This document shows positions 7,295-24,875 of a DNA stretch of 64,000 nucleotides, one piece after another. The first letter of the stretch is position 1. Every line of letters starts with the position of its first letter. The notes below the pieces were generated by a model. It saw only the letters and a list, made by a program, of their open reading frames with translations. It had not been told where the DNA came from and did no database searches. This DNA comes from Pseudacidovorax intermedius (lineage in GTDB: Bacteria > Pseudomonadota > Gammaproteobacteria > Burkholderiales > Burkholderiaceae_C): the NCBI RefSeq assembly GCF_003350475.1, contig NZ_QQAV01000001.1:736836-800835 (forward strand), in the 5' to 3' direction. Both the position numbers and the translations under genes were made by a program.

Positions 7295-10200
7295 TCAGCG
7301 CCCGGCTGGGGCGCCATGCCCCGGCGCCGCCCGCACACGCGCCACTTGCGCGGGCAGGTCGGCCCAGGCCGGCGCCTGCGGCGCGAAGCGGGCGCGCATG
7401 TAGCCGGCCAGTTCGGCGATCTGCGCATCGTCCAGCGCCTCGCGGAAGGCGGGCATGAAGCCGATGTCCCGCGTGGGCGGCGTGCGCACGCCATCGAGGA
7501 TGGTGCGGATCAGGTTGTCCGGCCGCGCGCTGGTGAGCTGGCTGTTCAGGGCGAGCGGCACGTTCGCGCCCAGCAGCGTGGGGCCGTCGCCGTCGTGGTG
7601 GCAGGCCGCACAGGCGGACTCGAACATGCGCTGCGGCGCGCCCAGCAAGGCGCCCTGCCCGGCGGCGGCGCGCTGCACGGCCTGGGCGGCCAGCGCCTGC
7701 GGCTCGGCCGCAGGCGGCGGGTTGAAGCTGGCCAGGTAAGTGGCCATGGCGCGCACGTCGGTATCGGGCAGCTGCTGCAGGCCGTGGACAACCTCGGCCA
7801 TCGGTCCACCCGCGATGCCGTGCCGCGGCGAATGACCGTGGCGCAGGTAGGCATAGAGGCCCTCGGCATCCCACGGCACGGCGTTGGTGGACCGCGCGGT
7901 GAGGGCGGGTGCCTCCCAGCCGTCGATCAGCGCGCCGGACAGGAAGTCAGTGCCGGCTTTCTCTGCACCCAAGGCATTGCGTGGGCTGTGGCAGGCGGCG
8001 CAGTGGCCCAAGCCGTTGACCAGATAGGCGCCGCGGTTCCATTCGGCGCTCTGGCCGGCGACCGGCTGGTAGGGCGTGGCGTCGTGGAACAGACCGTTCC
8101 ATCCCGCCATGAGGGGGCGAAGGTTGAAGGGGAAGCGCAGGTCGTTGGCCGGCATCACGGCCGTGCCGCCGTCCTCGCGCGCGCCGGCTTTCACCGCTTG
8201 CAGCGACATGAAGTAGGCGTAGAGCGCCTGCAGGTCGTCGTCGCTGGTCTTGGCGAAGGCGGTGTACGGGAAGGCCGGGTACAGATGACGGCCGTCGCGC
8301 GAGATGCCCTCGCGCATCGCACGCTGGAAGGCGGTGAAGGACCAGCGGCCCAGCCCGGTCTCGGCATCGGGCGTCAGGTTGGTCGTGTGGATCGTGCCGA
8401 ATGGCGTGTGCATGGCCCGGCCGCCGGCATTGGGCAGGCCGCCTTCGGCGGTGTGACAGACGGCGCAGTCGCCCGCCGCGGCCAGCTGGCGGCCGCGCTC
8501 GATGGTCTGGGCGCTGTAGGCCGGCGCGCTGAAGTTGACCGGCGCGATGGCCGGACGCCAGCCGAGCAGGCCAGCCACGGTGCCGATGCCGCCGACGAGC
8601 AGGCCGGCGATGAGGGCCGGCCAGCCTTTGCGACGCGGGGCGACGGTGTTGCTACTTCCCCCTTTGGGGGAAGGCTGGGATGGGGACTGCGGCGCTTGCC
8701 CTGCCGACGGCGTGGTGGACTGGCCCCCACCCCCGCTCTCCCCCACAGGGGGAGGGAGTGAAGACAGCGCGGCCAGCACCTTCTCGGGCGTGAAGGGCGG
8801 CTCGCGCAGGCGCACACCCGTCGCATCGAAGATGGCATTGGCGATGGCGGCCGTGCCCGGCACCGACGCCGACTCGCCGGCGCCCAGCGGCGATTCGCCG
8901 GGGCGCGGCATCTGCAGCACCTCGATGACCGGCACCTCGCGGAAATGCAGGATCGGATAGCTGCCCCATTCGCGCGTGGCGACCACGCCGGCGGGCGGCA
9001 TGCCGGGCAGCGGCATCTTCACCGGGAGCTGGGAGGCCGCGCTCCCGGCCGGCGGCGCGGCGGGGGCGAAACGCACCTCCTCCTTCAGCGCCCGGCTGGT
9101 GGTCTGGATGACATTGCCGTGCACCTGGTGCTCGACCCCGGCAGGGTTGACGGTCAGGCCCGCATCGTGGCCGACGACCACGCGGCGCACGTGCACTTCG
9201 CCGGTCCGGCGGTTGACCTCCACATCAGCCACCCAGGCCGCCCAGGCCGCGCCGAAGCCGGGCCACTTGCTGTGGATGTAGCGGGCGTATGCAAAGCCCT
9301 GTCCAAAAAGGATGTCGCCGCCGGGCCCGACCCGAGACTGCGGCGGCCGCGAGGGATGGTCGCCATGCGCATCCTCCTGCGGCCCGGTGCGCCAGCGCCA
9401 GCCGGCCTTCTGCGCCGTGGCCTGGATCAGCTCGCGCGCCCGCTCGTCGGGCAGGTGGCGCAGGCGGAACTGCACCGGGTCGACGCCCGCGGCCGTGGCC
9501 AGCTCGTCGATGAAGCTCTCGTGCGCGAAGGAATTGGGCAGGGCCGAAACGCCGCGCAGCCAAGAGGCCCGCACGATGGGCGCCATGTCGTGCACCTGCA
9601 CGCGCAGGTGGTCGTAGGCATAGGGCGGCTGCGCGGTGCGGTCGCCCATCTCGTAGGCCTGAGCCAGCGGCTCCACGGTGCGGGTGAGCAGCAGGGCCAG
9701 CGTGGGCGCGCCGTTGCTCGGGTAGCTGGTCTGGAAGTCGTAGGCCGCGATGCCGCCTTCGGGCGACAGCGCGCCGGCCACCTCCATCAGCTGCGCCGTG
9801 CCCTTGGGCTCCCACAGGTGCTCCTGCTCGCGGCTGAGCTGCACGCGCACCGGTGCACCAACCGCGCGGGCCAGCAGCGCGGCATCGGCCGCCACATCGT
9901 CGGCGCCGTTTCGGCCATAGCAGCCGGCGGCCTCCAGGCGGACCACGTCGACTTCGACGTCCTGCAGGGCCAGCAGGCGGGCCAGGTCGGCGCGCAGCAC
10001 ATGCGGGTTCTGTGTGCCGGCCCAGCAGCGCAGTCGCACGGGGCCGGGTCCGGGGCTGGGCGCGCCTTCGCGGCCTGCGCCCTCCTGACCATCACCAGCG
10101 CCACGCCCGTTGGCTCTGTCGTGCCTGCTGTCATCGCCATCGTCCGGCACCCACTGCGCCACCGCGCACGACGGCCCGATGGAGGCATGCAGCTGGTACG

Positions 10201-11227
10201 GCCACAGATAGGTGCGTCGCAGCGTGCCATCGCCCTGCAACGCAGCCTCGACGTCGCCCTCATCGACCAGCGTGCGCGTCGTCGCGGGGTTGGCGCGGAT
10301 GGCATCGGCCACCTTGCCCGCGCCGGCCAGGTCGGGCATGCCGGGCCAGGCCTTCCAGCGGACGCGCAACTCGCGCATGGCCTGTTCGGCGTGCTCCTCA
10401 CGCTCGGCCACCACGCCGACGAAGTCGCGGATGACGACCACGGCGCGGATGCCGGGAATGTGGGCGATGGACGATTCGTCCACCGACTCCAGCGTGTTGC
10501 CGATGAAGTCGCCATGGTCGGCGCCCGCGTAGGGCGGGCGGATCACGCGGCCATGCAGCATGCCGGGCACGTGCATGTCGTGCACGAAGGCCAGCTCGCC
10601 GGCCAGCTTGGCGGGAATGTCGATGCGCGGCTGCGGCGTGCCGACCACGCGGTAGTCCTCGGGCCGCTTGAGCGGCGTGGCCGGGTCCAGCCGCAGCACG
10701 GTGCGCTGGTGGGCAAGCAGCTCGGCGATGGGCAGGTCGATGCCTTCGGCCACGATACGTCCGCCCTCGATGGCCAGTTCGCTGGTCGCGCGGCCCACCC
10801 GCTCGGCGGCGCGCGCCAGCAGCCAGTGCCGCGCCTGCGCCGCCGCCAGCCGCAGCGGCTGTGCATGGATCTGGATCGAGGCGCTGGCGATGGTGGCGCC
10901 CTGGTTGGGCACCTGCGCCGTGTGGCCCAGCGCCATCGCGACGCAGGCCATGGGCACATCGAGCTCCTCGGCCACGATCTGCGCCAAGGCGGTCTGGATG
11001 CCGGTGCCCAGGTCCACATGGCCGTTGAGCGCCGTGACGCTGCCGTCGTCCCAGACGGCGAGCAGGACTTCGTCGCCCTCGGCCGGATTGCCGGGCACGG
11101 CGGCGGGCTGGCCCTTGGCGGGCGGCGGCGGAACCGGCGTGTCGCGCACGACGACCAACACGCCCACGGCGCCGAGGAAGTCGGCGCGCGTGCGGGGCTG
11201 GGCGGCGCGTCGCGGGTCGGCGGTCAC
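7295..11227 (-). CDS. nicB: Nicotinate dehydrogenase-type molybdopterin and triheme cytochrome c subunit (NicB-like)
   Basis: 1310 residues in three parts. Residues about 1-820 form the molybdopterin-binding subunit of the xanthine dehydrogenase/aldehyde oxidase superfamily (VDLGTGIQTALAQIVAEEL, GHTAQVPNQGATIAS, GCYGRNGADDVAADA, PNSFAHESFIDELA). Residues about 864-886 are a membrane span (GWPALIAGLLVGGIGTVAGLL). The C-terminal part carries three heme motifs, CAVCH near 921, CAACH near 1076 and CAACH near 1205. This is the architecture of NicB, which with the [2Fe-2S] subunit NicA hydroxylates nicotinate at C6 and passes electrons to the respiratory chain. The GTG start overlaps the nicA stop (GTGA). 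Odd features: a hydrophilic low-complexity insert near residues 357-392 and a repeat-derived linker near 821-861. Related enzymes act on isoquinoline or aldehydes; the neighbouring nicotinamidase, Hnr and enamidase genes make nicotinate the best guess. Confidence 0.85.
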   Translation of the reverse strand: MTADPRRAAQPRTRADFLGAVGVLVVVRDTPVPPPPAKGQPAAVPGNPAEGDEVLLAVWDDGSVTALNGHVDLGTGIQTALAQIVAEELDVPMACVAMALGHTAQVPNQGATIASASIQIHAQPLRLAAAQARHWLLARAAERVGRATSELAIEGGRIVAEGIDLPIAELLAHQRTVLRLDPATPLKRPEDYRVVGTPQPRIDIPAKLAGELAFVHDMHVPGMLHGRVIRPPYAGADHGDFIGNTLESVDESSIAHIPGIRAVVVIRDFVGVVAEREEHAEQAMRELRVRWKAWPGMPDLAGAGKVADAIRANPATTRTLVDEGDVEAALQGDGTLRRTYLWPYQLHASIGPSCAVAQWVPDDGDDSRHDRANGRGAGDGQEGAGREGAPSPGPGPVRLRCWAGTQNPHVLRADLARLLALQDVEVDVVRLEAAGCYGRNGADDVAADAALLARAVGAPVRVQLSREQEHLWEPKGTAQLMEVAGALSPEGGIAAYDFQTSYPSNGAPTLALLLTRTVEPLAQAYEMGDRTAQPPYAYDHLRVQVHDMAPIVRASWLRGVSALPNSFAHESFIDELATAAGVDPVQFRLRHLPDERARELIQATAQKAGWRWRTGPQEDAHGDHPSRPPQSRVGPGGDILFGQGFAYARYIHSKWPGFGAAWAAWVADVEVNRRTGEVHVRRVVVGHDAGLTVNPAGVEHQVHGNVIQTTSRALKEEVRFAPAAPPAGSAASQLPVKMPLPGMPPAGVVATREWGSYPILHFREVPVIEVLQMPRPGESPLGAGESASVPGTAAIANAIFDATGVRLREPPFTPEKVLAALSSLPPPVGESGGGGQSTTPSAGQAPQSPSQPSPKGGSSNTVAPRRKGWPALIAGLLVGGIGTVAGLLGWRPAIAPVNFSAPAYSAQTIERGRQLAAAGDCAVCHTAEGGLPNAGGRAMHTPFGTIHTTNLTPDAETGLGRWSFTAFQRAMREGISRDGRHLYPAFPYTAFAKTSDDDLQALYAYFMSLQAVKAGAREDGGTAVMPANDLRFPFNLRPLMAGWNGLFHDATPYQPVAGQSAEWNRGAYLVNGLGHCAACHSPRNALGAEKAGTDFLSGALIDGWEAPALTARSTNAVPWDAEGLYAYLRHGHSPRHGIAGGPMAEVVHGLQQLPDTDVRAMATYLASFNPPPAAEPQALAAQAVQRAAAGQGALLGAPQRMFESACAACHHDGDGPTLLGANVPLALNSQLTSARPDNLIRTILDGVRTPPTRDIGFMPAFREALDDAQIAELAGYMRARFAPQAPAWADLPAQVARVRAAPGHGAPAGR
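8645..8764. repeat. REPIN-like GC-rich element lying in frame inside nicB
   Basis: Two perfect short hairpins flank about 64 bases: CTTCCCCC-TTT-GGGGGAAG at 8655-8673 and CTCCCCC-ACA-GGGGGAG at 8738-8754, each continuing into purine/pyrimidine-biased arms. Two inverted REP-type hairpins around a short spacer are the layout of a REPIN or mini mobile repeat, and elements of this look are common between genes in Comamonadaceae. Here the element is translated and supplies the linker (GESGGGGQSTTPSAGQ... to ...QPSPKGGSSNTV) between the molybdenum domain and the membrane span of NicB. Confidence 0.65.
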
Positions 11228-11715
11228 CGCGGCGCCTCCGGCACAGCCGCAGCGCCGAGCCGGGCCGCGGCCAGGCTCACCGCACGCAGGATCTCCACAT
11301 GCGTGCCGCAGCGGCACAGGTTGCCCGACAGCTCGCTGCGAATGCGCGCCTCGTCGGCCTGCGGCTCACGCGCGAGCAGTGCCGCGGCCTGCATCACCAT
11401 GCCATTCAGGCAGTAGCCACACTGGGCGGCCTGCGCCTCCTCGAAGGCCTGCTGCACGGGATGGAAGTGCCCGCGCCGACCCAGGCCTTCCAGGGTGGTG
11501 ATGGCGCGCCCCGCCACGCCCTGCGCGGGAATGACGCAGGCCCGCGCCGCGGTGCCGTCCACATGCACCGTGCAGGCGCCGCACTGGCCCAGGCCGCAGC
11601 CGTACTTGGGGCCGTTCAGGCCCAGGTCGTTGCGCAGCAGGTGCAGCAGCGAGGTCTGACGCGGGACATCGCCCGTGAAGGGCTGGCCGTTGACGGTGAG
11701 CTGGAGCGCGGGCAA
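11224..11715 (-). CDS. nicA: Nicotinate dehydrogenase [2Fe-2S] subunit (NicA-like)
   Basis: 163 residues with both cluster motifs of the molybdenum hydroxylase small subunit: the ferredoxin-like set GCGLGQCGACTVHVDGTAARAC near residues 39-61 and the helical-domain set CGYCLNGMVM ... SGNLCRCGTH. Such subunits carry two [2Fe-2S] clusters and pass electrons from the molybdenum site to the cytochrome part. The start is a TTG at 11715, and no better start with a good ribosome binding site is visible, so the first residue is uncertain by a few codons. The stop overlaps the GTG of nicB by GTGA, suggesting translational coupling and a 1:1 complex. It follows the nicotinamidase gene by 20 bases. Confidence 0.88.
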   Translation of the reverse strand: MPALQLTVNGQPFTGDVPRQTSLLHLLRNDLGLNGPKYGCGLGQCGACTVHVDGTAARACVIPAQGVAGRAITTLEGLGRRGHFHPVQQAFEEAQAAQCGYCLNGMVMQAAALLAREPQADEARIRSELSGNLCRCGTHVEILRAVSLAAARLGAAAVPEAPR

Positions 11716-11735
11716 GGCAGGTCGCTCGAACCTTC

Positions 11736-12464
11736 TCAGGCGACGTCGGCCGACTGGATGCGCTTGACACCCTTGGCCGTCATCTGCTGCCAGGCCTTGG
11801 CCAGCGAGCCATTGAGGTCGATGGCGCGGGTGGCGTCCTCGATCACGTAGACGTTGAAGCCGGCGGCGCGTGCATCCAGCGCCGTCCAGGCCACGCAGAA
11901 GTCGGTGGCCAGGCCCGTGACGTACACGGTCTTGATGCCGCGCGCCTTGAGGTAGCCGGCCAGGCCGGTGACCGTCTTGCGATCGGCCTCCTGGAAGGCG
12001 GAGTAGCTGTCCACGCCCTGGTTGTAGCCCTTGCGGATGATCAGCTGCGCGGTGGGCAGCTTCAGGTCCTTGTGCAGGGCCGCGTCGTCAGTGCCCTGCA
12101 CGCAGTGGTCGGGCCACAGCACCTGGTTGCCATAGTTGAGCTTGATGCTGTCGAAGGCCTTGGTGCCGTTGTGGGCGCTGGCGAAGGAGGTATGGCCCGG
12201 CGTGTGCCAGTCCTGCGTGACGACGATGTTCTGGAACTTGGGCGCCAGCGCGTTGATGACAGGCACCACGTCGGCGCCGCCCTTGACCGGCAGCGTGCCG
12301 CCATCGACGAAGCAGTTCTGCACGTCGACCACGATCAGCGCGGCCTGGGCGCTGGGGCTGATCTTCTTGGCGTCGGCCGCGAACAGCGGCGGCGCGATGG
12401 CCGCGGCGCCGAAGGCGGCGGCAGCCTGCAGGAAGTGGCGGCGTGGGGTGGCGGTGCGCAGCAT
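11736..12464 (-). CDS. pncA: Nicotinamidase (isochorismatase family) with twin-arginine signal
   Basis: 242 residues. The mature domain is a PncA-type nicotinamidase: catalytic Asp in ALIVVDVQNCF (residue 47), metal ligands in TQDWHTPGH, general base Lys in LIIRKGYNQG and nucleophile Cys in GLATDFCVAWTA. It converts nicotinamide to nicotinate and ammonia. Unlike ordinary cytoplasmic PncA it starts with TPRRHFLQAAAAFGAAAIAPPLFAADA, a twin-arginine motif plus hydrophobic stretch and a cleavage site near AADA, so the enzyme is probably exported folded to the periplasm. A GGAGGGA ribosome binding site precedes the ATG. It lies 30 bases after livF and 20 before nicA, which places it inside the niacin operon as its entry enzyme. 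Confidence 0.9.
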   Translation of the reverse strand: MLRTATPRRHFLQAAAAFGAAAIAPPLFAADAKKISPSAQAALIVVDVQNCFVDGGTLPVKGGADVVPVINALAPKFQNIVVTQDWHTPGHTSFASAHNGTKAFDSIKLNYGNQVLWPDHCVQGTDDAALHKDLKLPTAQLIIRKGYNQGVDSYSAFQEADRKTVTGLAGYLKARGIKTVYVTGLATDFCVAWTALDARAAGFNVYVIEDATRAIDLNGSLAKAWQQMTAKGVKRIQSADVA

Positions 12465-12494: not shown

Positions 12495-13229
12495 TCAGAC
12501 GCTGAGGTAGGCCCGGCGGACTTCGTCGTTGGCGGCCAGCTCGTCCATGGTCGCCTGGTAGCGGATCTGGCCTTTCTCCAGCACGTAGGCGCGGTCCGAG
12601 ACGAGTTCGGCGAAGTGCATGTTCTGCTCCGACAGCAGGATGGACACGCCCTGGGCCTTGAGCTCCAGGATCATGTGGGCCATCTGCTCCACGATGACGG
12701 GCGCGACGCCTTCGGAGGGTTCGTCGAGCAGCACGAGGTAGGGATTGCCCATGAGCGTGCGGGCGACGGTGAGCATCTGCTGCTCACCGCCACTCATGCG
12801 ACCGCCGGGGCGGTCCGGCATCTCGCCGAGGTTAGGGAAGAGCTTGAACAGCTTCTCGGGCGTCCACAGCGGCGCGGCACCGCCGTCGGCCCATTGGCGG
12901 CCGGCCTGGCGGCCGACTTCGAGGTTTTCCATGACGGTGAGGTCGGTGAAGACACGCCGGTCTTCGGGCACGAAGCCCAGGCCCAGGCGGGCGGCATGGT
13001 GCGGCTCGGTCTTGGAGATGTCGTGGCCCAGGAAGCGGATGCTGCCGCGGCGCTTGGCGAGCATGCCCATGAGGGCCTTGAGCGTGGTCGACTTGCCGGC
13101 GCCGTTGCGGCCCATGAGGGCGACGACCTCGCCGCGGCGCACTTCCAGGTCCACGTCGTAGAGGATCTGGGCGGCGCCGTACCAGGCGCAGAGGGACTTG
13201 GCTTCGAGCAGGACGGGCGGGGTGCTCAC
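12495..13229 (-). CDS. livF: Branched-chain amino acid-type ABC transporter ATP-binding protein (LivF-like)
   Basis: 244 residues. Walker A GRNGAGKSTTLKALMG near residues 40-55, signature RMSGGEQQMLTVARTLM, Walker B YLVLLDEPSEGVAP and switch histidine region SEQN are all present, and the length matches LivF. It would energise the LivHM-type permease encoded upstream. The start is a GTG at 13229. It is separated from livG by 784 bases filled with inverted repeats, although in most such operons livG and livF touch or overlap, so the repeats appear to have been inserted here. The substrate is inferred from context to be a pyridine compound rather than an amino acid. Confidence 0.92.
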   Translation of the reverse strand: MSTPPVLLEAKSLCAWYGAAQILYDVDLEVRRGEVVALMGRNGAGKSTTLKALMGMLAKRRGSIRFLGHDISKTEPHHAARLGLGFVPEDRRVFTDLTVMENLEVGRQAGRQWADGGAAPLWTPEKLFKLFPNLGEMPDRPGGRMSGGEQQMLTVARTLMGNPYLVLLDEPSEGVAPVIVEQMAHMILELKAQGVSILLSEQNMHFAELVSDRAYVLEKGQIRYQATMDELAANDEVRRAYLSV

Positions 13230-14013: not shown

Positions 14014-14778
14014 TCATGCAGCCTTCTTCTCGAAGGTCTTGCCAGACCCGAAGTACACCTCCTGCACCTTCGGATGGTCCCGGATCTCCAGCGGCTTGCC
14101 CTCGGCGATCAGGCGCCCGCGCGCCAGCACGATCATGCGGTCGGCATACGCGAACACCACGTCCATGCTGTGCTCGGTGAACAACACCGCCATGCCGCGG
14201 TCGATCACCAGTTGCTTGGTCAGTGCCATCAGCGAATTGCGTTCCTTCGGCGCCATGCCGGCCGTGGGCTCGTCCATCAGCAGCAGCTTGGGGTCGTTGG
14301 CCATGGCGATGGCCAGCTCCACGCGCTTGACGTCGCCATAGGCCAGCACGCTGCACGGCCGGTCGGCCTGCGACTTCATGCCCACCTGGTCGAGCAGCGC
14401 CAGCGCCTCGTCGCGCTTGTGGTCGGACGCCCGCCGCCACATGGCGAACAGCTTGGCGTCGTGCGACAGCAGCGCCATCTGCACGTTCTCGACCACCGTC
14501 AGCGACGAGAAGGTCTCGGCGATCTGGAAGGTGCGGCCCACGCCCAGGCGCCAGATCTCGCGCGGCTTCTTGCCCACCAGCTCGGTGCCATCCAGCGTGA
14601 TCGAGCCCTGGTCGGCCTTGAGCTGGCCATTGACCATGTTGAAGGTGGTGGACTTGCCGGCGCCATTGGGGCCGATCAGCGCCAGCAGCTCGCCCTTGGC
14701 CAGCGTGAAGCTGATGCCGTCGACGGCCTTCACGCCGCCGAAGGACTTGCCCAGGTTCTGGACATGCAGCAGGGACAT
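14014..14778 (-). CDS. livG: Branched-chain amino acid-type ABC transporter ATP-binding protein (LivG-like)
   Basis: 254 residues beginning MSLLHVQNLGKSFGGVKAVDGISF. Walker A is GPNGAGKSTTFNMVNG, the signature is in VLAYGDVKRVELAIAMANDP (a LivG-like variant of LSYGxQR), and Walker B is LLLMDEPTAGM. The ATG at 14778 is preceded by GGAGG and overlaps the stop of a 15-codon reading frame by one base. Reading on upstream gives an arginine-rich extension with no family similarity. It pairs with LivF to drive the fused LivHM permease. The C-terminal VYFGSGKTF region is the typical LivG tail. Confidence 0.93.
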   Translation of the reverse strand: MSLLHVQNLGKSFGGVKAVDGISFTLAKGELLALIGPNGAGKSTTFNMVNGQLKADQGSITLDGTELVGKKPREIWRLGVGRTFQIAETFSSLTVVENVQMALLSHDAKLFAMWRRASDHKRDEALALLDQVGMKSQADRPCSVLAYGDVKRVELAIAMANDPKLLLMDEPTAGMAPKERNSLMALTKQLVIDRGMAVLFTEHSMDVVFAYADRMIVLARGRLIAEGKPLEIRDHPKVQEVYFGSGKTFEKKAA

Positions 14779-14825
14779 CAGAGCACCTCCAGGCCGATGA
14801 AGAACAAGTTGAAGGGTCGGCTCAT
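14778..14825 (-). CDS. Possible 15-residue coupling peptide between livHM and livG
   Basis: An ATG overlaps the livHM stop (ATGA at 14825-14822) and opens the short frame MSRPFNLFFIGLEVL, whose TGA overlaps the livG ATG (TGATG). It fills the whole gap between the two genes and contains the livG ribosome binding site GGAGG. This could pass terminating ribosomes from livHM to livG. It may equally be chance in GC-rich DNA; no homologue is recognised. Confidence 0.3.
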   Translation of the reverse strand: MSRPFNLFFIGLEVL

Positions 14826-16807: not shown

Positions 16808-18022
16808 TCAGTCCGCGCTGCGGGACTTCTTCACGTCAGCCGCGGGCGGCTGGAAGCGGGCATCGGCGCCGTCGTAGTAGACGTAGTCCACCATCACGCC
16901 CTTTCCGCCCTCGTTCTTGGTCTTGCCCACGAAGGCGCCCATGGTCGACTGGTGGTCCTCGGCGCGGTAGCTGATCTTGCCGAAGGGGCTGTCCACCTGC
17001 AGGCCCTTGAAGGCGGCGACCAGCTTGTCGGCGTCGGTGCTGCCGGCCTTGGCGATGCCGGCGGCGGCCGACTTGATCATGCTGTAGCCCACCACCGAGC
17101 CCAGGCGCGGGTAGTCCTTGAACTTGGCCTGGTAGGCGTCGAGGAAGGCCTTGTGCTCGGGCGTCTTGATGCCGTAGTACGGGTAGCCGGTCACGATCCA
17201 GCCATCGGGCGCTTCGTCCTTGAGCGGGTCGAGGTACTCGGGCTCGCCGGTCAGCACGCTGACCACGGTGCGGTCCTTGAACAGGCCGCGGGTGTTGCCC
17301 TCGCGCACGAACTTCGACAGGTCGGCGCCGAACAGCACGTTGAAGATGGCGTCGGGCTTGGCATCCGCCAGGGCCTGCACCACGCTGCCCGCGTCGACCT
17401 TGCCCAGCGGCGTGGCCTGCTCGGTGACGAACTCCACGTCGGGCTGCGCGGCCTTCAGCAGGTTCTTGAAGGCGGCCACGGCCGACTGGCCGTATTCGTA
17501 GTTGGGGTAGACCAGCGCCCAGCGCTTCTTCTTCTGCTTGACGGCCTCGGGCACCAGCATCGCGGCCTGCATGTAGGTGCCGGGGCGCAGGCGGAAGGTG
17601 TACTGGTTGCCGCCCTGCCAGGTCATCTTGTCGGTCAGCGGCTCGCCGGCCAGGTAGAAGAATTTTTTCTGCTTGGCGAAGTCGGCCAGCGCGAGGCCGG
17701 TGTTGGACAGGAAGGCGCCGGCCAGCACGTCCACCTTCTCGCGGGAGACCAGTTCCTCGGCCATGCGAACGGCGTCGCCCGGGTTGGCGTTGTCGTCGCG
17801 GGTGATCAGCTCGATCTTCTTGCCGTTGACGCCGCCCTTGGCGTTGATCTCGTCCACGGCCAGCTCCATGCCCTTCTTGTAGGGCTCCAGGAAGGCCGGC
17901 TGGGCCTTGTAGCTGTTGACCTCGCCGATCTTGATGACGTTCTGGGCGTGGGCCGGCATCAGCGTGCCGGCAGCCAGGGCCAGCGCCGCGGCGGCACCGA
18001 AATGGAGGCGGAAGGGTTGCAT
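16808..18022 (-). CDS. ABC transporter periplasmic substrate-binding protein (LivK-like)
   Basis: 404 residues with a signal peptide MQPFRLHFGAAAALALAAGTLMPAHAQ, followed by a type I periplasmic binding fold of the Leu/Ile/Val family (IKIGEVNSYKAQPAFLEPYKKGMELAVDEINAKGGVNGKKIELITRDDNANPGDAVRMAEELVSREKVDVLAG). I chose the ATG at 18022 because it opens the signal peptide; the upstream frame encodes unrelated arginine-rich sequence. Family members bind amino acids, amides, urea or aromatic acids. Its place inside the niacin cluster suggests nicotinate, nicotinamide or 6-hydroxynicotinate as ligand (inference). It heads the transport part of the operon. Confidence 0.9.
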   Translation of the reverse strand: MQPFRLHFGAAAALALAAGTLMPAHAQNVIKIGEVNSYKAQPAFLEPYKKGMELAVDEINAKGGVNGKKIELITRDDNANPGDAVRMAEELVSREKVDVLAGAFLSNTGLALADFAKQKKFFYLAGEPLTDKMTWQGGNQYTFRLRPGTYMQAAMLVPEAVKQKKKRWALVYPNYEYGQSAVAAFKNLLKAAQPDVEFVTEQATPLGKVDAGSVVQALADAKPDAIFNVLFGADLSKFVREGNTRGLFKDRTVVSVLTGEPEYLDPLKDEAPDGWIVTGYPYYGIKTPEHKAFLDAYQAKFKDYPRLGSVVGYSMIKSAAAGIAKAGSTDADKLVAAFKGLQVDSPFGKISYRAEDHQSTMGAFVGKTKNEGGKGVMVDYVYYDGADARFQPPAADVKKSRSAD

Positions 18023-18092: not shown

Positions 18093-18677
18093 TCAGCGAA
18101 GGCCGTCCACGCCCTTGATCTCGGACACCTGCAGACCGCCGATGCGCGGCAGCGGACGGCCGCTGTCGGTGACGGCCACGGCCACCACGATCTCGCCCGC
18201 GCGCGGGGCATCGCTCACGCGCGCCTCGACGGCGTCGAAATGGCTGCGCACGAAGGCCGCGTCCTTGTGGCCCAGCGGCACATCGATGGCGGTGCCCAGC
18301 GTGCCCTGCTTCTTGGCCGAGGGCACCAGCGCGGCGCCCTTCTCGACCGCCACACGCAGCGGCGCGCCCAGCTTGGGATGCAGGATGGCGGCGGCATGCT
18401 CCAACTCGCCGGCCTCGCCGACGATGGCGGCCTTGCCGTAGCTCTGCGCCTGGCCGGGCTCGATGCCCAGGGCCTTCACGGCCTTCTGCCCGAGCAGGCC
18501 GCCGAGTTCCTCGCCGATGGCGATCAGTTCGTCGAGGTTCTCGCTATAGCGGCCGGCGTAGGGGTTGGCGATGACGGCGATGGCGACGGCACGGCGCGTG
18601 GGCGGGTCGATGGTCTGGCCCATCTCCTTGCGGGTTTCGTCGACTTGCACGATGAGCTTGCGGATGTCTGCGGGCAT
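18093..18677 (-). CDS. Amino acid synthesis family protein (DUF1185), first paralogue
   Basis: 194 residues starting MPADIRKLIVQVDETRKEMGQTIDPPTRRAVAIAVIANPYAGRYSENLDELIAIGEELG, a clear match to the DUF1185/AA_synth family. AAGGAGAA lies just before the ATG. Structures of this family show a variant of the trimeric chorismate-mutase fold, but no reaction is established; the name amino acid synthesis comes from weak early annotation. Conserved stretches seen here are NPYAGRY, YGKAAIVGEAGELEHAAAI and GTAIDVPLGHKDAAFVRSHFD. It lies 26 bases after a second paralogue of the same family in the niacin operon, and the two may form one hetero-oligomer. A role in handling a ring-cleavage product is a guess. 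Confidence 0.88.
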   Translation of the reverse strand: MPADIRKLIVQVDETRKEMGQTIDPPTRRAVAIAVIANPYAGRYSENLDELIAIGEELGGLLGQKAVKALGIEPGQAQSYGKAAIVGEAGELEHAAAILHPKLGAPLRVAVEKGAALVPSAKKQGTLGTAIDVPLGHKDAAFVRSHFDAVEARVSDAPRAGEIVVAVAVTDSGRPLPRIGGLQVSEIKGVDGLR

Positions 18678-18703: not shown

Positions 18704-19345
18704 TCAGCGCAGGCCGTTCCATTGGCTGATGTCCTCGGCCTTGAGGCCGCCGACGCGGGCATGCACGCGGTAGCCGGTGGTCATGGCGAGGATGAAGACG
18801 ATCTCGTCGGCCGCGGGCGCGCCGGGCACGCGCACCTCGATGGCGTCGAACTGGCCGCGCACATAGCTGGCGTTGATGTTGGTGAGCGGCACATCGAGCG
18901 CGGCGCCGGGGGGGCCCACCTTCTTGGTGGACGGCACGATGGAGAGCGCGTTGCCCGGCTGCCCGCTCTTGGCCTCACCCTGGCCGGCGGTGTAGGCCGC
19001 ACGGTCGCCCTTCCAGCCCAGCAGCTCTCGCATGGCGTAGCCGCCGGGCACATGCCAGAGGGCACCATGCTCCAGCTCGCCCGCCGCGCCGACGATGGCG
19101 CCCTTGCCGTAGGTGGCGATGGCCTCGCGCGGCACGTCCATGGCGGCCAGCAGGCGCTGGGCCATGTCCACGCCCACCGGGTCCAGCAGCGTCATCATGG
19201 GCAGGATGTCCGGCTCGTAGCGGCCGGCGAAGGGATTGGCGAGCACGGCACCGATGGCACCGCGCACCAGCGGCTGCTCGGCGCGGGGGCCGAACTCGTG
19301 GTGAATGTGCTCGACCTGGGTGAAGACGCGGCGGATGTCGATCAT
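18704..19345 (-). CDS. Amino acid synthesis family protein (DUF1185), second paralogue
   Basis: 213 residues, MIDIRRVFTQVEHIHHEFGPRAEQPLVRGAIGAVLANPFAGRYEPDILPMMTLLDPVG. It aligns along its length with the neighbouring 194-residue protein: NPFAGRY versus NPYAGRY, TYGKGAIVGAAGELEHGALWHVPGGYAMREL versus SYGKAAIVGEAGELEHAAAILHPKLGAPLR, GAALDVPLTNINASYVRGQFDAIEVRV versus GTAIDVPLGHKDAAFVRSHFDAVEARV. Overall identity looks moderate, so the duplication is old. Probably cytoplasmic, no signal peptide. It sits between the UPF0280 gene (24 bases) and the other paralogue (26 bases). No function is established for the family. Confidence 0.88.
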   Translation of the reverse strand: MIDIRRVFTQVEHIHHEFGPRAEQPLVRGAIGAVLANPFAGRYEPDILPMMTLLDPVGVDMAQRLLAAMDVPREAIATYGKGAIVGAAGELEHGALWHVPGGYAMRELLGWKGDRAAYTAGQGEAKSGQPGNALSIVPSTKKVGPPGAALDVPLTNINASYVRGQFDAIEVRVPGAPAADEIVFILAMTTGYRVHARVGGLKAEDISQWNGLR

Positions 19346-19369: not shown

Positions 19370-20260
19370 TTAAGCAAATACTGAACCAACGGACGGCGCC
19401 GCCAGGGTCTCGTTCCGTGTCGACAGCACTCTCCATTGCCCTTGGCACACGATCACGGCAGCGTGGATGAGGCCGTGCGACTGCAGTTCCGTCGCGCGTC
19501 GCAGCCCCGATTCGACCGCATCGCGCACCACGCTGGGGGGCAGCGGCGGAACCTGCACGGTGACGGGCAGCGCACCGAGGTCGCTGTCGTCCTTGCATTC
19601 GTTGGCGGGGCGGCGCTCGATGGCAGGGTGGTCCGCATCGACGGCGTTGGCGACGATGGATGCCGCCGCATCGGCCTGCGCGGCAGTGGCCGCAAGGATG
19701 GTGACGCTGTCGGCGATGCCCAGCGAAAAGCTGCGTCCGCGCCAGCCACTGGTGGCGACGCCGCGCACCGGGTCGGCGGCGGCAACGCTGAACTGCCCGT
19801 CGGTGCGCAGGCGCTGCGCGTCCTGCGGCGCGAAGCGGGCCAGGTCAGCATAGAGGCCGACGCGCGCCTCGGTGCCGGGCGCGAGATGCAGCGCGATGTC
19901 GCCGCCGTTGTTGATCCAGGCGCGGGCAATGCCGGGCCGCTGGTAGAAGGCGATCAACTCCTGGGCCACCGAGCCGGCCACCGCCGCCATCGGGGTGATG
20001 AAGGCCGGCAGGAAGGGCAGGCAGGCCGCCTGCATGCGGCGCGCCACTGGGCTGCGCAGGCTTGCATGTTCCGACACCGGCCGGCGCAACGAAGGCAGCT
20101 CGGCGACCAGCTCGTCCAGCAGGCCTTCGAAGCGCGCCCACGCCGCCTCGTGCGCCTCGGCCACGGCACGCACTTCACCCTCGGCCTGGACCACGAGGTC
20201 CATGGGACCGTGGTGCCAGTGCCAGCGCTGGGCATCGAGGGCGTGGCGTTGGGCGGGCAT
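19370..20260 (-). CDS. UPF0280 family protein (ApbE-like fold)
   Basis: 296 residues from the ATG at 20260; a TTG four codons earlier is an alternative. Segments FLPAFITPMAAVAGSVAQELIAFYQRPGIARAWINNGGDIALHLAPGT and GVATSGWRGRSFSLGIADSVTILAATAAQADAAASIVANAVDAD match UPF0280, whose members resemble the flavin-transferring ApbE family (compare the NNGGDIALHL motif with the ApbE DxGG region). No activity is established. It lies 23 bases after the hnr stop and 24 before the DUF1185 pair in one operon. If it retains flavin transfer, a flavin-dependent reductase nearby could be a target; this is speculation. Confidence 0.85.
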   Translation of the reverse strand: MPAQRHALDAQRWHWHHGPMDLVVQAEGEVRAVAEAHEAAWARFEGLLDELVAELPSLRRPVSEHASLRSPVARRMQAACLPFLPAFITPMAAVAGSVAQELIAFYQRPGIARAWINNGGDIALHLAPGTEARVGLYADLARFAPQDAQRLRTDGQFSVAAADPVRGVATSGWRGRSFSLGIADSVTILAATAAQADAAASIVANAVDADHPAIERRPANECKDDSDLGALPVTVQVPPLPPSVVRDAVESGLRRATELQSHGLIHAAVIVCQGQWRVLSTRNETLAAPSVGSVFA

Positions 20261-20283
20261 GCGTCGCGGCAAAGAGGGGCCGG

Positions 20284-21903
20284 TCAGCCCAGCATGGGCT
20301 TGTGACCCAGCGGCCAGGGGTTGTCGCTGGCCTGGCCGACGAAGCGGCGGGCGAGCGGCGCGCCGTCATCCTGCCAGGCGCCGCGGCGCAGCGCCTGTTC
20401 CAGCGACATCACATGCTCCATGTGGCCGCCCAGGTCCGCGTAGTCCTGCAGCCGCATGCTGAATTCAATGGGCGCGATGATGGCCGGCGTGGGCACGGTG
20501 CCGAAGCTGTTGTCGGGCATGCGCATCACGTCGGCCATGACGGTGATGCCTCCGCCCGGCCACACATAGGCCGGCGCGCCGCCGCAGGTCACGTTGACCA
20601 GCGCGCGCTTGATGGCGCGGGTGAGCAGGATGGGGTTCTCGGTCACGCCCGCACGCAGGCTGCCGCCCGCACCGCCCAGAAAGAGCACCGTGGTGAGCGA
20701 AGGCTCGCAGTTCTCGCCGATGCGCTCGACCACCTTGCGCACGGCCTCGGGCATGGGCTGCGGAACGGGGCGCAGCTCGTCGTCCAGCACGTACCACTCG
20801 GCCTGCTCGCCAGTGGTGGAGGTCATCAGCAGCTTGAGGCCCGGCCTGGCCACGCCGGGCTCCCAGCCTTCGATGATGGCCAGCGGATCGGCGATGTCGG
20901 TGCCGCCCCAGCCGCTGCCCGGATTGGCCACCTGGAAGTAGCGCCCCGGCGTGGACTTGCGCCCGCGCATCTGGATGCCCGAGGGCGGCATGGCCAGGCA
21001 GCGGCCAGCCTGGTGTTCGGTGAGCACGCCGGTGATGTGGTCGTCGACCACCACCACCTCGTCGGCCAGACCCAGCAGCTGCTTGGCGAAGATGCCCACC
21101 GTGGCCGAGCCGCAGCCCACGCGCATGCGCTGCTCTTCCACGCCGTTGACGATGGGCGCGCGGCCGGCCTGGATGACCAGGCTGGCGCCACCGTCGATGG
21201 TGCATTCGGCCGCCTGCTTGTTGCACAGCCGCTGCATCATCTCCAGCGTCATCCGGCCTTCCTTCTTGCTGCCGCCGGTGAGGTGGTGCACACCGCCCAG
21301 CGACAGCATCTGCGAGCCGTATTCGGCGGTGGTCACATGGCCCACCACTTCGCCCTTGTAGCGGACGTTGGCCTGCTCGCTGCCGAGGAAGCGGTCGGTG
21401 TCGATCTTCACCTTCACGCTGCAGTAGCTGAAGATGCCTTCGGTGACCACGGTGACCATGTCCACGCCCTGGGCCTTGGAGGCCACGATGAAGGGCGCCG
21501 GCTTGTAGTCGGGATAGGTGGTGGAGCTGCCGATGCCGGTGACGAAGACCTGGTCGGCCAGCAGCAGGTCGCCGTTCCAGTCGTCCTGCGACGCATCGGC
21601 CGGCGCCTTTTCGGCCGCGGGGCGGGCGAAGGGCACGAGTGCGGGCTCGGGCGAGTCCAGTTCGCGCCGCAGCATGACCACGGGGTCGACGCGCACCAGC
21701 ACGCCCTCGCGGTTGGCATAGCGGTCGCAGGCGCCGGTGCGGCCGTCGGAGATCTGGCACAGCACCGGGCAGGCGTTGCATTCGACCTTGCTCGTGCTCA
21801 TGCGCTCGTTGCGCGCGGGCGCGCGGCCCAGGCCATCGGGCGTGGTGGGCAGGGCCGGCACGTCGATGCCGGGCAGGCCGTCGGTCTTGGTGTGTTCTGT
21901 CAT
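20284..21903 (-). CDS. hnr: 6-Hydroxynicotinate reductase (Hnr-like)
   Basis: 539 residues from the ATG at 21903. An N-terminal iron-sulfur motif C-x2-C-x3-C-x9-C (CNACPVLC...GACDRY, residues 42-59) is followed by a large catalytic region with GIGSSTTYPDYKPAPFIVAS, VTEGIFSYCSVKVKIDTDRFLG, LGGVHHLTGGSKKEGRMTLEMM and GGSLRAGVTENPILLTRAI, as in the reductase of Eubacterium barkeri and its proteobacterial relatives. The enzyme reduces 6-hydroxynicotinate to 1,4,5,6-tetrahydro-6-oxonicotinate using reduced ferredoxin. It is the first gene of the long minus-strand operon and diverges from fpr-tetR-ena. The next enzyme of the route, enamidase, is encoded on the other strand. Family assignment rests on recognised motifs and on context. 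Confidence 0.85.
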   Translation of the reverse strand: MTEHTKTDGLPGIDVPALPTTPDGLGRAPARNERMSTSKVECNACPVLCQISDGRTGACDRYANREGVLVRVDPVVMLRRELDSPEPALVPFARPAAEKAPADASQDDWNGDLLLADQVFVTGIGSSTTYPDYKPAPFIVASKAQGVDMVTVVTEGIFSYCSVKVKIDTDRFLGSEQANVRYKGEVVGHVTTAEYGSQMLSLGGVHHLTGGSKKEGRMTLEMMQRLCNKQAAECTIDGGASLVIQAGRAPIVNGVEEQRMRVGCGSATVGIFAKQLLGLADEVVVVDDHITGVLTEHQAGRCLAMPPSGIQMRGRKSTPGRYFQVANPGSGWGGTDIADPLAIIEGWEPGVARPGLKLLMTSTTGEQAEWYVLDDELRPVPQPMPEAVRKVVERIGENCEPSLTTVLFLGGAGGSLRAGVTENPILLTRAIKRALVNVTCGGAPAYVWPGGGITVMADVMRMPDNSFGTVPTPAIIAPIEFSMRLQDYADLGGHMEHVMSLEQALRRGAWQDDGAPLARRFVGQASDNPWPLGHKPMLG

Positions 21904-21979
21904 CGTGGGCTTTCGTGCAACGCGGCCTGTGTGTGCAACAAGCATGCCGGAAATCGGCTTGGCGGCGATGCACCGTTTG

Positions 21980-22017
21980 TGTAGCATCCGCTCCATATTC
22001 ATGTTGTGATTGCTACA
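21980..22017. promoter_or_regulatory. Candidate operator in the hnr/fpr divergent region
   Basis: TGTAGCA at 21980-21986 and TGCTACA at 22011-22017 are a perfect 7-base inverted repeat with half-sites 31 bases apart, about three helical turns. It lies 77 bases before hnr and about 175 before fpr, inside the 289-base divergent region. The TetR-family protein encoded at 22972 is the obvious candidate ligand. No core promoter elements could be assigned with confidence. Confidence 0.4.
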
Positions 22018-22192
22018 TGAAACGAATCTAGCGGCCCGGCGCGATGCTTGCATGGGTGTTTTCCAGAGTGCACGACTCCCCTTCCTGGTGCGTCGTGAAC
22101 GAAAATGGGCAGCACCAGCCAGTGGCGCCGCAAGCCTCGCGCGCATGCCCTCGTGCCACCCGCCAGCTTCCCTTTCATTTGGTTATTAGCTT

Positions 22193-22966
22193 ATGAGTGC
22201 CTTCGCCGAAGAACGCGTCCTGACCGTCCACCACTGGACCGACCGCCTGTTCAGCTTCACCACCACGCGCGATCCTGCCCTGCGCTTTTCCAACGGGCAC
22301 TTCACGATGATCGGCCTCAAGGTCGACGGCAAGCCGCTGCTGCGTGCCTACAGCATCGTGAGCGCAAACTACGAGGAGCACCTCGAGTTCCTGAGCATCA
22401 AGGTGCCCGACGGCCCGCTCACCTCGCGCCTGCAGCACATCAAGGTCGGCGACACCATCGTGGTCGGCCGCAAGCCCACCGGCACGCTGCTGATCGACTA
22501 CACCCTGCCCGGGAAGCGGCTGTACCTGTTCGGCACCGGCACCGGCGTCGCGCCCTTCCTGAGCGTGATCCGCGACCCCGAGACCTACGAGAAGTTCGAG
22601 AAGGTCATCCTGGTGCACGGCGTGCGCGAGGTGGCCGAGCTGGCCTACCACGACACCATTACGCAGGACCTGCCGCACCACGAGTTCCTGGGCGAGATGG
22701 TGAGCGAGCAACTGCTGTACTACCCCACCGTCACGCGCGAGCCCTTCCGCAACCAGGGCCGCATCACCGACCTGATCACCAGCAACAAGCTCACCGACGA
22801 CCTGGGCCTGCCGCCGCTCAATCCCGCCGAAGACCGCGTGATGCTGTGCGGCAGCCCCATGCTGCTGGCCGACATGAAGCTGATCCTGGAGCAGCGCGGC
22901 TTCCACGAAGGCAACACGACCACCCCCGGCGACTACGTTGTCGAACGTGCCTTTGTAGAGAAGTAA
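22193..22966 (+). CDS. fpr: Ferredoxin--NADP(+) reductase
   Basis: 257 residues. The FAD-binding motif RAYSIVS (residues 56-62) and NADP-binding GTGTGVAPFLSVIRD, plus the C-terminal MLCGSPMLLADMKLILEQRGFHEGNTTTPGDYVVERAFVEK with its aromatic-poor bacterial tail, identify a subclass II bacterial Fpr. It moves electrons between NADPH and ferredoxin or flavodoxin in the cytoplasm. Its start has only a weak ribosome binding site. Fpr is a common housekeeping gene in Burkholderiales, but here it opens the fpr-tetR-ena group divergent from hnr; since characterised Hnr depends on reduced ferredoxin, Fpr could supply that electron carrier (inference). Confidence 0.93.
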   Translation: MSAFAEERVLTVHHWTDRLFSFTTTRDPALRFSNGHFTMIGLKVDGKPLLRAYSIVSANYEEHLEFLSIKVPDGPLTSRLQHIKVGDTIVVGRKPTGTLLIDYTLPGKRLYLFGTGTGVAPFLSVIRDPETYEKFEKVILVHGVREVAELAYHDTITQDLPHHEFLGEMVSEQLLYYPTVTREPFRNQGRITDLITSNKLTDDLGLPPLNPAEDRVMLCGSPMLLADMKLILEQRGFHEGNTTTPGDYVVERAFVEK

Positions 22967-22971
22967 CCCAG

Positions 22972-23730
22972 GTGGCCACGCGCAAGACGCCCGCCAAGCC
23001 GCAGCGCAAGACCGGCGTGCGCGAGGCGCAGGCGCAGGCCTCGCGCGAGGCCATCCTGCGTGCGGCCACCAAGGTGTTCGCCAGGTACGGCTACGAGGGC
23101 GGCAGCGTGGAGAAGATCTCGCGCGCGGCCAAGTCGTACGACCGGATGATCTACTACTACTTCGGCAGCAAGGAAGGCCTGTTCGTGGCCGTGCTGGAGG
23201 GCATCTACCAGCGCATGGACGAGGCCGAGGCCGCCATGGCGCTGGACATGGCCCGCCCGGTCGAAGCGCTGACCGAGGTGATCCGCTTCGTGCTGGGCTA
23301 CTACCGGCGCAATCCCGACTTCGTCACCCTGCTCAACACCGAGAACCTGCACAAGGGCCGGCACATCGCCAAGTCGGTGCGCGCGCGCGAATACTCGTCG
23401 CGGGCGGTGGCGGTGATCGCCTCGATCCTGGAGAGCGGTATGGCCCAGGGCCTGTTCCGCCCCGACCTGGCCGCGCGCGACGTCTACCTGCTGATCGCGG
23501 CGACGGGCTACTTCTACATGTCCAACCGCTACACGCTCGCCAGCTTTCTGGGCGAGCAGCTCGATGCGCCCGAGGCCGCCCAGCACTGGGAGGCCTTCGT
23601 GACCGAGACGGTGCTGCGCGCCGTGCGGCTGGACGACAGCACGGAATCTCTCCCACCCCACGAGGAAACCCAAAAATGGCAGAAGTCGCCACCGCCGGCA
23701 AGTCGGGCAAGGTCGTCATCCAGAACATAG
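22972..23730 (+). CDS. TetR family transcriptional regulator
   Basis: 252 residues from a GTG at 22972, five bases after the fpr stop. The N-terminal helix-turn-helix reads ASREAILRAATKVFARYGYEGGSVEKISRAAKSYDRMIYYYFGSKEGLFVAVLEG, a typical TetR DNA-binding domain preceded by a basic tail; the C-terminal ligand-binding part is helical and unremarkable. The last 55 bases overlap the start of ena in another frame. The stop at 23728 was the first in frame, and the end (WQKSPPPASRARSSSRT) looks like readthrough past the ancestral end. The likely role is ligand-responsive control of the niacin genes, possibly through the inverted repeat at 21980-22017. Confidence 0.88.
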   Translation: MATRKTPAKPQRKTGVREAQAQASREAILRAATKVFARYGYEGGSVEKISRAAKSYDRMIYYYFGSKEGLFVAVLEGIYQRMDEAEAAMALDMARPVEALTEVIRFVLGYYRRNPDFVTLLNTENLHKGRHIAKSVRAREYSSRAVAVIASILESGMAQGLFRPDLAARDVYLLIAATGYFYMSNRYTLASFLGEQLDAPEAAQHWEAFVTETVLRAVRLDDSTESLPPHEETQKWQKSPPPASRARSSSRT

Positions 23731-24875
23731 GGCTGCTGCTCTCGGGCGACATCGACCAGCCCATCCTGCAGGCCGACACCATCGTGGTCCAGGATGGCCT
23801 GATCGCCGCCGTGGGCCGCTACAAGGACTGCGATGTCGAAGGCGCCACCACCGTCATCGACGCGCGCCAGACCTGCGTGGCGCCGGGCCTGATCGACAGC
23901 CACGTGCACCCCGTGGCCGGCGACTGGACGCCGCGCCAGAGCCAGCTCAACTGGATCGAGTCCAGCATGAACGGCGGCGTCACCACCATGATCTCCGCCG
24001 GGGAGGTGCACTACCCCGGCCGGCCCAAGGACATCGTGGGCCTGAAGGCCCTGGCCATCACCGCGCAGCGCGCCTTCGACGCCTTCCGTCCCGGCGGCGT
24101 GAAGGTGCTGGCCGGCGCACCGGTCATCGAGAAAGGCATGGTCGAGAGCGACTTCAAGGAACTGGCCGAGGCCGGCGTCGGCCTGCTGGGCGAGGTGGGC
24201 CTGGGCAGCGTCAAGGCAGGCTACGAGGCCAAGGAGATGGTGGCCTGGGCCCGCAAGTACGGCATCCAGAGCACCATCCACACAGGCGGCCCATCGATTC
24301 CCGGCTCGGGCCTGATCGACAAGGACGTGGTGCTGGAGGCCGATGCCGACATCATCGGCCACATCAACGGCGGCCACACCTCGCTGCCCGAGGCGCACGT
24401 GTGCGAGCTGTGCGAGAAGAGCACCCGCGGCATCGAGATCGTGCACAACGGCAACGAGCGCGTGGCCATCGCGGCGGCCAAGGCGGCGCTGGAGCTCAAG
24501 TGCCCGCACCGCGTGATCCTGGGCACCGACGGCCCCGCCGGCTCGGGCGTGCAGCCGCTGGGCATCCTTCGCATGATCGCCATGCTCTCGTCGCTGGCCA
24601 ACATCCCGGCCGAGCTGGTGTTCTGCTTCGCCACCGGCAACACGGCCCGCATGCGCAAGCTCAACTGCGGCCTGATCGATAAGGGCTACGCCGCCGACTT
24701 CGTGTTCATGGACCGTGCCCAGCACACGGCCGGCCGCACGCTGCTGGAAAGCGTGCAGCTCGGCGACCTGCCGGGCGTGGGCATGGTGATGATCGACGGC
24801 ATCGTGCGCTGCGGCCGCAGCCGCAACACGCCGCCAGCCACGGAAGTGCCCGTGGTGGTGTCCGGCGCGCATTGA
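23676..24875 (+). CDS. ena: Enamidase (1,4,5,6-tetrahydro-6-oxonicotinate hydrolase)
   Basis: 399 residues of the amidohydrolase superfamily. Metal ligands are the HxH of GLIDSHVHPVAGDW (His76 and His78), later HTGGPSIPGSG, GHINGGHTSLPE and the C-terminal Asp in LGTDGPAGSGVQPLGILRM. Strings such as GGVTTMISAGEVHYPGRPKD and FCFATGNTARMRKLNCGLIDKG match the Eubacterium barkeri enamidase, which opens the reduced ring to 2-formylglutarate plus ammonia. GAGGAAA eight bases upstream of the ATG is a strong ribosome binding site. The gene overlaps tetR and ends convergently with gtrA. Its presence with hnr defines the reductive niacin route. Confidence 0.88.
   Translation: MAEVATAGKSGKVVIQNIGLLLSGDIDQPILQADTIVVQDGLIAAVGRYKDCDVEGATTVIDARQTCVAPGLIDSHVHPVAGDWTPRQSQLNWIESSMNGGVTTMISAGEVHYPGRPKDIVGLKALAITAQRAFDAFRPGGVKVLAGAPVIEKGMVESDFKELAEAGVGLLGEVGLGSVKAGYEAKEMVAWARKYGIQSTIHTGGPSIPGSGLIDKDVVLEADADIIGHINGGHTSLPEAHVCELCEKSTRGIEIVHNGNERVAIAAAKAALELKCPHRVILGTDGPAGSGVQPLGILRMIAMLSSLANIPAELVFCFATGNTARMRKLNCGLIDKGYAADFVFMDRAQHTAGRTLLESVQLGDLPGVGMVMIDGIVRCGRSRNTPPATEVPVVVSGAH

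Follow-up and report, generated by a model that had tools for sequence, protein, structure and literature searches.

A probable reductive nicotinate catabolism island of Pseudacidovorax intermedius and the pairing of UPF0280 with its 6-hydroxynicotinate reductase homologue

Nicotinate fermentation in Eubacterium barkeri includes the steps of 6-hydroxynicotinate reductase (Hnr) and enamidase (Ena) and continues via hydroxymethyl- and methyleneglutarate. Genes of this kind are said to have been found in nine proteobacteria by Alhapel in 2006. Homologues of both enzymes are encoded in a gene island within a 64,000-nucleotide stretch of DNA from the soil bacterium Pseudacidovorax intermedius (contig NZ_QQAV01000001.1), which is the subject of this work and is referred to as the window; all coordinates are positions in it. 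In contrast to the four-subunit hydroxylase of E. barkeri (accessible part of PMC10331938), the window encodes a cytochrome c-linked NicAB. The same cluster was reported in 2012 for Azorhizobium, Bradyrhizobium, Rhodopseudomonas and strain SG-6C in PMC3511419, the accessible part of which includes two proteins of unknown function in the cluster, cites Alhapel 2006 for it and states that the pathway also serves the degradation of neonicotinoid-derived 6-chloronicotinate. The route via tetrahydro-oxonicotinate to glutarate is shared with this cluster of Azorhizobium caulinodans and the Bradyrhizobiaceae; the window differs in belonging to a betaproteobacterium and in having a fused LivHM, a twin-arginine (Tat)-type nicotinamidase and a TetR regulator, where annotated plasmid relatives mostly have MarR/NicR-like regulators. 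The Pseudomonas putida-type nicCDEFX route, whose NicB falls in the same clade as that of the window (as judged via the relative L004), oxygenates the ring, whereas in this organism, in whose genome a NicC orthologue was not found, the ring is proposed to be reduced. The reductive cluster type is thus already published, and its pathway reading, although well supported, is not new.

Open reading frame (ORF) calls and Pfam/NCBIfam scans placed hnr-UPF0280-DUF1185-DUF1185-livK-livHM-livG-livF-pncA-nicA-nicB on the minus strand, opposite fpr-tetR-ena on the plus strand. This order, proposed earlier from the sequence alone, was borne out, as each named gene is an open frame with the expected family matches, except that Hnr matched no Pfam or NCBIfam family. 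The earlier coordinates were correct overall, but the start codons of hnr, UPF0280, livK and livG were revised, the likeliest being 21801, 20203, 18022 and about 14778, respectively. The features are as follows.

7295 to 11317, minus strand: nicB, molybdopterin subunit carrying three CxxCH haem sites and a hydrophobic, membrane-type stretch (start uncertain; matches to Pfam MoCoBD_1/2 and to cytochrome c families)
11224 to 11715, minus strand: nicA, [2Fe-2S] subunit (Fer2_2, 97.3 bits)
11736 to 12464, minus strand: pncA, nicotinamidase with a twin-arginine (Tat-like) signal, predicted to be periplasmic (NF008623, 180.9 bits against a cut-off of 174)
12495 to 13229, minus strand: livF, ATP-binding cassette (ABC) transporter ATPase (ABC_tran)
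14014 to 14778, minus strand: livG, ABC transporter ATPase (LivG/UrtD family matches under cut-off; synteny kept)
14822 to 16777, minus strand: livHM, fused permease (BPD_transp_2, two stretches)
16808 to 18022, minus strand: livK, solute-binding protein (Peripla_BP_6)
18093 to 18677, minus strand: AAsB, DUF1185 (PF06684, 236.5 bits, above cut-off)
18704 to 19345, minus strand: AAsA, second DUF1185 (PF06684, 213.2 bits, above cut-off; PDB 3BYQ homologue, E 6e-43)
19370 to 20203, minus strand: UPF0280 (COG2122), protein with a predicted ApbE fold (NF003322, 389.5 bits against a cut-off of 290)
20284 to 21801, minus strand: hnr, 6-hydroxynicotinate reductase homologue (annotation of plasmid relatives)
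21998 to 22021, no strand: operator-like palindrome TTCATGT-N10-ACATGAA between hnr and fpr (related words enriched in homologous intergenic regions)
22193 to 22966, plus strand: fpr, ferredoxin/flavodoxin-NADP+ reductase-like (NF008178, 150 bits, under the cut-off of 390; FAD and NAD domains)
22963 to 23730, plus strand: tetR, TetR-family regulator (TetR_N, TetR_C_29)
23676 to 24875, plus strand: ena, enamidase (PDB 2VUN, E 6e-107, 46% identity over 380 aligned residues)

This set of genes very probably constitutes the front end of a reductive nicotinate catabolism of the E. barkeri/Azorhizobium type. PncA, exported by the Tat system, would convert nicotinamide to nicotinate in the periplasm, and the Liv-type ABC transporter would import the nicotinate. 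Membrane-anchored NicAB, going by family knowledge and predicted topology, would hydroxylate it to 6-hydroxynicotinate, with electrons passing through its own cytochrome c domains to the respiratory chain. By homology, Hnr, probably fed with NADPH via Fpr, would reduce 6-hydroxynicotinate to 1,4,5,6-tetrahydro-6-oxonicotinate, and Ena, a homologue of a solved enzyme, would open this lactam to 2-formylglutarate and ammonia, the former presumably going on to glutarate as published for Azorhizobium (cited in the accessible part of PMC3511419). UPF0280 would serve Hnr as a helper of its own, most likely in flavin loading, the DUF1185 proteins are guessed to act just after ring opening, most likely on a formyl-dicarboxylate, and the putative regulator TetR, together with the palindrome, probably controls the divergent operons.

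The name Hnr was assigned by annotation only, since 26 plasmid relatives are 57-84% identical to the window protein and 17 of these are annotated as 6-hydroxynicotinate reductase (3 are hypothetical and 6 without annotation); no credible PDB sequence match was found. An Hnr alignment contained seven invariant cysteines, four of them within an N-terminal CxxCxxxCx9C motif, and D-H-I-T-G in 33/33 rows. A scan of GTDB genomes gave at least 589 confirmed Hnr-encoding stretches, and synteny was read from the best 80 of these loci, whose titles all named Burkholderiales or betaproteobacteria bar one "uncultured bacterium"; the closest named genome among the matches listed was Pseudacidovorax sp. NFM-22 (Hnr 98%). 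UPF0280, DUF1185 and the liv genes followed hnr wherever the contig extended that far, while ena or tetR was placed differently in ten loci (eight from Burkholderia/Paraburkholderia, L038 and L047) and DUF1185 was single in ten. As this order recurs across the best 80 loci, the arrangement of the island is far beyond chance.

Hnr was found in 32 of 398 sampled Pseudomonadota genomes, in 3 of 274 genomes of a separate sample from the class, and in all 15 genomes of the Pseudacidovorax-type genus, in which only Hnr was searched (the own genome is counted in each). The last result marks Hnr as a genus-wide trait here and not a stray, and recent acquisition of the island as an accessory element is for the same reason unlikely. 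These frequencies in the 398-genome sample and the genus, together with the cluster published in PMC3511419 (accessible part), contradict the earlier claim that the mix of enzymes is unusual. In one relative (G286:C1:2969820-2971225), Hnr appeared as two pieces, adjacent and in order, of a gene that is split or broken; UPF0280 adjoins it there as well. The Hnr core was also seen on plasmids of marine Rhodobacterales (L115, L118 and L121-L123), several times with xanthine dehydrogenase (XDH)-type hydroxylases and Rieske oxygenases, and the substrate of these cores may differ from nicotinate.

For UPF0280, a model made from 31 Hnr-linked rows was run on the same 398 genomes, with only the best 3 (Hnr) and 6 (UPF0280) first-look candidates per genome being scored. 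Both proteins occurred in the identical 32 genomes and neither ever alone (16 of 213 genera for both), although this count comes from Hnr-linked training rows and from genomes that are not independent. In 32/32 genomes, the two genes share a strand and are no more than about 600 bases apart. For 121 Hnr loci, a number of which overlap, the DNA extended at least 1100 bases downstream; a same-strand UPF0280 followed within 400 bases in 117 and within 610 in 3 more, and UPF0280 was not found at E <= 0.001 in three Hnr-free genomes given a fuller search. In the one exception, L003 (genome G190), UPF0280 is present once, on a different contig, next to a weakly NicB-like stretch and both DUF1185 genes. 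That the two are mere neighbours is unlikely, as G190 has both on different contigs. This link was not recognised in the open-licence literature searched.

In other lineages, COG2122 serves homocysteine synthesis (accessible part of PMC5764234). COG2122 works there with HcyBio (PF01837), and such a role was ruled out for UPF0280 of the window, as HcyBio had no match at E <= 0.001 in the own genome. The predicted fold of UPF0280 matched the ApbE flavin transferases, and NNGGD, the ATSG serine (Ser152) and the ADAAAT aspartate (Asp178) were invariant in 31/31 rows. Compared with ApbE as described in the accessible part of PMC12052999, UPF0280 is alike in fold, in the serine and aspartate of the catalytic triad and in the NxGGD and ATSG motifs, but the segment carrying the triad histidine is missing. 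The Ser-His-Asp triad is therefore incomplete, the histidine segment being a gap in the alignment, and the protein scored under the Pfam ApbE gathering cut-off (20.5 bits against 25.6). Likewise, the ApbE target motif D-x-x-[S/T]-G-A-[S/T] of PMC12052999 (accessible part) was not found in the 33 Hnr rows, which carry D-H-I-T-G followed by V (32/33) or Q, one residue, and S/T (33/33), a variant written here as D-H-I-T-G-V-x-[S/T]. No canonical ApbE above the family cut-off was found in the genus genomes G663 and G665, both of which have Hnr; a canonical ApbE is therefore not needed for having Hnr. The E. barkeri Hnr reportedly contains covalently bound flavin and iron-sulfur (Fe-S) clusters (in Alhapel's 2006 work); a literature search for the flavin confirmed nothing.

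It is tentatively proposed, at a little short of even confidence, that UPF0280 is a dedicated flavin-loading enzyme of Hnr, that is, a divergent ApbE with a changed catalytic set that would attach flavin mononucleotide (FMN) to the D-H-I-T-G-V-x-[S/T] motif. That UPF0280 instead takes part in Hnr maturation in a sulfur- or Fe-S-related way is also possible, if rather doubtful. This alternative would accommodate both the loss of the triad histidine segment and the lack of an exact ApbE target motif in Hnr, but it leaves aside the ApbE fold with its serine, aspartate and NNGGD invariant in all 31 rows, the covalent flavin reported for the E. barkeri Hnr, and the presence of Hnr in G663 and G665 without a canonical ApbE above cut-off. 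If the flavin-loading proposal is true, it would provide a molecular function for a family of unsettled function and a second flavin transferase lineage with its own target motif.

The enamidase assignment made from the sequence alone was upheld, Ena aligning from end to end with the enamidase PDB 2VUN (174/380 aligned residues identical) and sharing with it five histidines and the GxDxPxG aspartate as metal-site candidates. Among the 75 Hnr loci that are 15 kb or longer, mostly from Burkholderiales and of limited independence, 65 had Ena only within the fetched flanks, 8 had HyuA or HyuAB only, one had both and one neither. In the single locus with both, HyuAB was distant (41-44% identity), and the eight Ena-free loci (L114, L115, L116, L118, L119, L120, L121 and L162), six of which are annotated plasmid regions, had Hyu proteins mutually at least 60% identical; ten of the 26 plasmid Hnr matches had been opened for their neighbourhood. 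Judging by these gene contents, HyuAB looks like a non-orthologous, almost mutually exclusive replacement of Ena in lactam opening.

For the hydroxylase, a NicB tree was built with 34 rows from the 88 loci that had a usable fragment (22 hnr-linked, one, L131, with hnr on another contig, 5 nicC-linked and 6 others), the window NicB being replaced by its relative L004 (93% identity in the fragment). Canonical nic clusters had been traced via NicB in 249 genomes, 18 of them with NicB at E <= 1e-60, and six regions were read. A single clade held all rows except two of the others, with hnr-linked and nicC-linked rows intermixed; the hnr label needs 4 changes on the tree, but well-supported branches force only 1, which is compatible with a single origin. 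As the L004 stand-in falls in this shared clade, NicAB of the window is, by phylogeny, assigned to the ordinary nicotinate hydroxylase family, and together with the molybdenum cofactor (Moco)/[2Fe-2S] family matches this agrees with the earlier call of a nicotinate-type hydroxylase. In the window NicB, CxxCH occurs at 951, 1106 and 1236, and the Moco part is separated from the haem part by a hydrophobic stretch near 901-919; a corresponding stretch (mean hydropathy 1.46-2.27) was present in all 10 NicB relatives whose DNA reaches the haem site, of 13 asked.

Several observations weigh against the reductive nicotinate pathway as drawn. Genes beyond 2-formylglutarate were not in the island, and a ferredoxin gene was not found among the island genes scanned. 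Fpr was present in 45 of 61 Hnr loci of at least 21 kb and is therefore not indispensable, and the 42% identity tied to the E. barkeri Hnr is, in the accessible part of its source, a published figure for another strain and not for the window Hnr. As hnr elsewhere also adjoins other hydroxylases, the substrate range may exceed nicotinate. Furthermore, homologues of NicX (about 49% identity), NicD (55%) and NicF (42%) lie on contig C20 of the own genome, which rules out that the genome lacks the entire nicX/D/F set. They might mean that NicAB feeds an oxidative route, in which 6-hydroxynicotinate becomes 2,5-dihydroxypyridine and is degraded through NicX/D/F, with Hnr and Ena otherwise employed. 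This was judged very improbable, as the best NicC match in the genome reached 35% identity, whereas the NicC orthologues in the search, two in number, are 65% identical to each other, and the C20 homologues (L172, 1-20000) sit with an XDH-type Moco hydroxylase of their own, a Rieske oxygenase and reductase, an amidohydrolase-2 and a Liv-type transporter. We take this to be the layout of picolinate degradation. A search for NicE confined to the two stretches of C20 gave no match at E 1e-6.

A different alternative is that the island applies the same chemistry to another N-heterocycle, such as a pyridine carboxylate or a chlorinated analogue, nicotinate not being the main substrate. Since Hnr-UPF0280-DUF1185 cores occur in other bacteria with XDH-type hydroxylases, Rieske oxygenases or HyuAB, the core is portable, which lends this idea some weight; it nevertheless appeared unlikely given a hydroxylase of the NicB clade (via L004), an Ena 46% identical to the enamidase of the nicotinate pathway and a nicotinamidase above its curated cut-off in the operon. 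The sequence-only reading had proposed reductive cleavage instead of the oxidative route and had suggested looking for an absence of nicC, nicX, nicD and nicF. The former stands as far as NicAB, an Hnr-type reductase with an Fpr-like neighbour, Ena and the missing NicC orthologue are concerned, and the latter holds for NicC but not for NicX, NicD and NicF, homologues of which exist. A full nicCDEFX cluster was not found elsewhere, as the search gave no NicC orthologue and the NicX/D/F homologues lie in a separate, picolinate-like cluster; for these reasons, the organism probably degrades picolinate oxygenolytically and nicotinate by the reductive route.

PF06684 (DUF1185) was found in 59 of the 398 genomes, comprising 31 of the 32 with Hnr (not G400) and 28 without. 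Downstream DNA of at least 3500 bases was available for 83 Hnr loci, and two DUF1185 genes were present in 70 of these, one in 12 and none in one; the lone gene in ten Burkholderiales loci was of the AAsB type. DUF1185 genes that do not adjoin Hnr were looked at in eleven fetched regions, in nine of which some neighbours were family-scanned (not in L159 and L163). L158, L160, L161 and L164 had combinations of alpha/beta hydrolase, aldehyde dehydrogenase, flavin reductase and luciferase-like monooxygenase, which resemble the trigonelline (N-methylnicotinate) pathway. FAA hydrolase, Zn-alcohol dehydrogenase and TctC were found in L154 and L157, an FAD-binding hydroxylase-type protein and alpha/beta hydrolase in L155, and amidohydrolase and aldehyde dehydrogenase in L156, while the neighbours in L165 were uninformative. 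L154, L155 and L156 are three further DUF1185 copies of the own genome, on C4 and C19. From these neighbourhoods, DUF1185 also appears to lie within clusters that look like other ring-cleavage pathways. As the ring-opening products 2-formylsuccinate and 2-formylglutarate would be analogous, the most economical guess is that DUF1185 acts on a formyl-dicarboxylate just after ring opening, for example as a decarboxylase or tautomerase. TgnF of the trigonelline pathway, a DUF1185-like protein, is said to stimulate succinate semialdehyde oxidation (second-hand via the accessible part of PMC7913881). Against a formyl-dicarboxylate role, the authors of PMC7913881 could, in that part, observe no such stimulation for their own DUF1185 protein, and the DUF1185 crystal paper suggests amino-acid metabolism (accessible part of PMC2954203, in which the term "nicotin" was not found).

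The N-terminus of PncA reads RRHFL followed by a hydrophobic stretch, and an RRxFL-like motif was present in the N-terminal region of 35 of 36 homologues. As the searched region included some in-frame upstream translation and had no shuffled control, Tat export of PncA is given only as a prediction; no paper on an exported nicotinamidase was found in a literature search. The hnr-fpr gap of the window contains TTCATGTTGTGATTGCTACATGAA at 21998-22021. In the hnr-fpr intergenic regions of 62 loci, ATGTAG/CTACAT words occurred 133 times in 26,732 bases; outside these regions, the same loci had 273 in 1,122,173 bases, which makes an approximately 20-fold enrichment. Two or more words were present in 52 of the 62.

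Beyond the island, the window contains a MetH-like gene (28282-31038) whose matches start at the pterin-binding domain; a homocysteine-binding domain was not matched in this ORF, which by its domains is probably part of a two-gene MetH. An ORF at 31271-32713 with chlorhexidine-efflux-family (BTP) matches adjoins, and as called overlaps, a divergent AceR-like LysR regulator that scored under its curated cut-off.

What the analysis adds to the published cluster is the UPF0280 pairing, the Ena/HyuAB swap, the DUF1185 contexts, the Tat-like PncA, the palindrome and the survey of NicC/X/D/F. The locus is of value for the sharp, testable role that it suggests for UPF0280 and for the modular replacements surrounding the Hnr core. 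The strict co-occurrence of Hnr and UPF0280 reduces an unsettled family to the single question of Hnr flavinylation, and the Ena/HyuAB swap and DUF1185 contexts offer direct tests for two further enzyme steps. For the organism, the presence of Hnr in 15/15 genomes of the genus means that this betaproteobacterial genus probably has the ring-reducing breakdown of vitamin B3 as a core trait, which thus extends beyond anaerobes and rhizobia.

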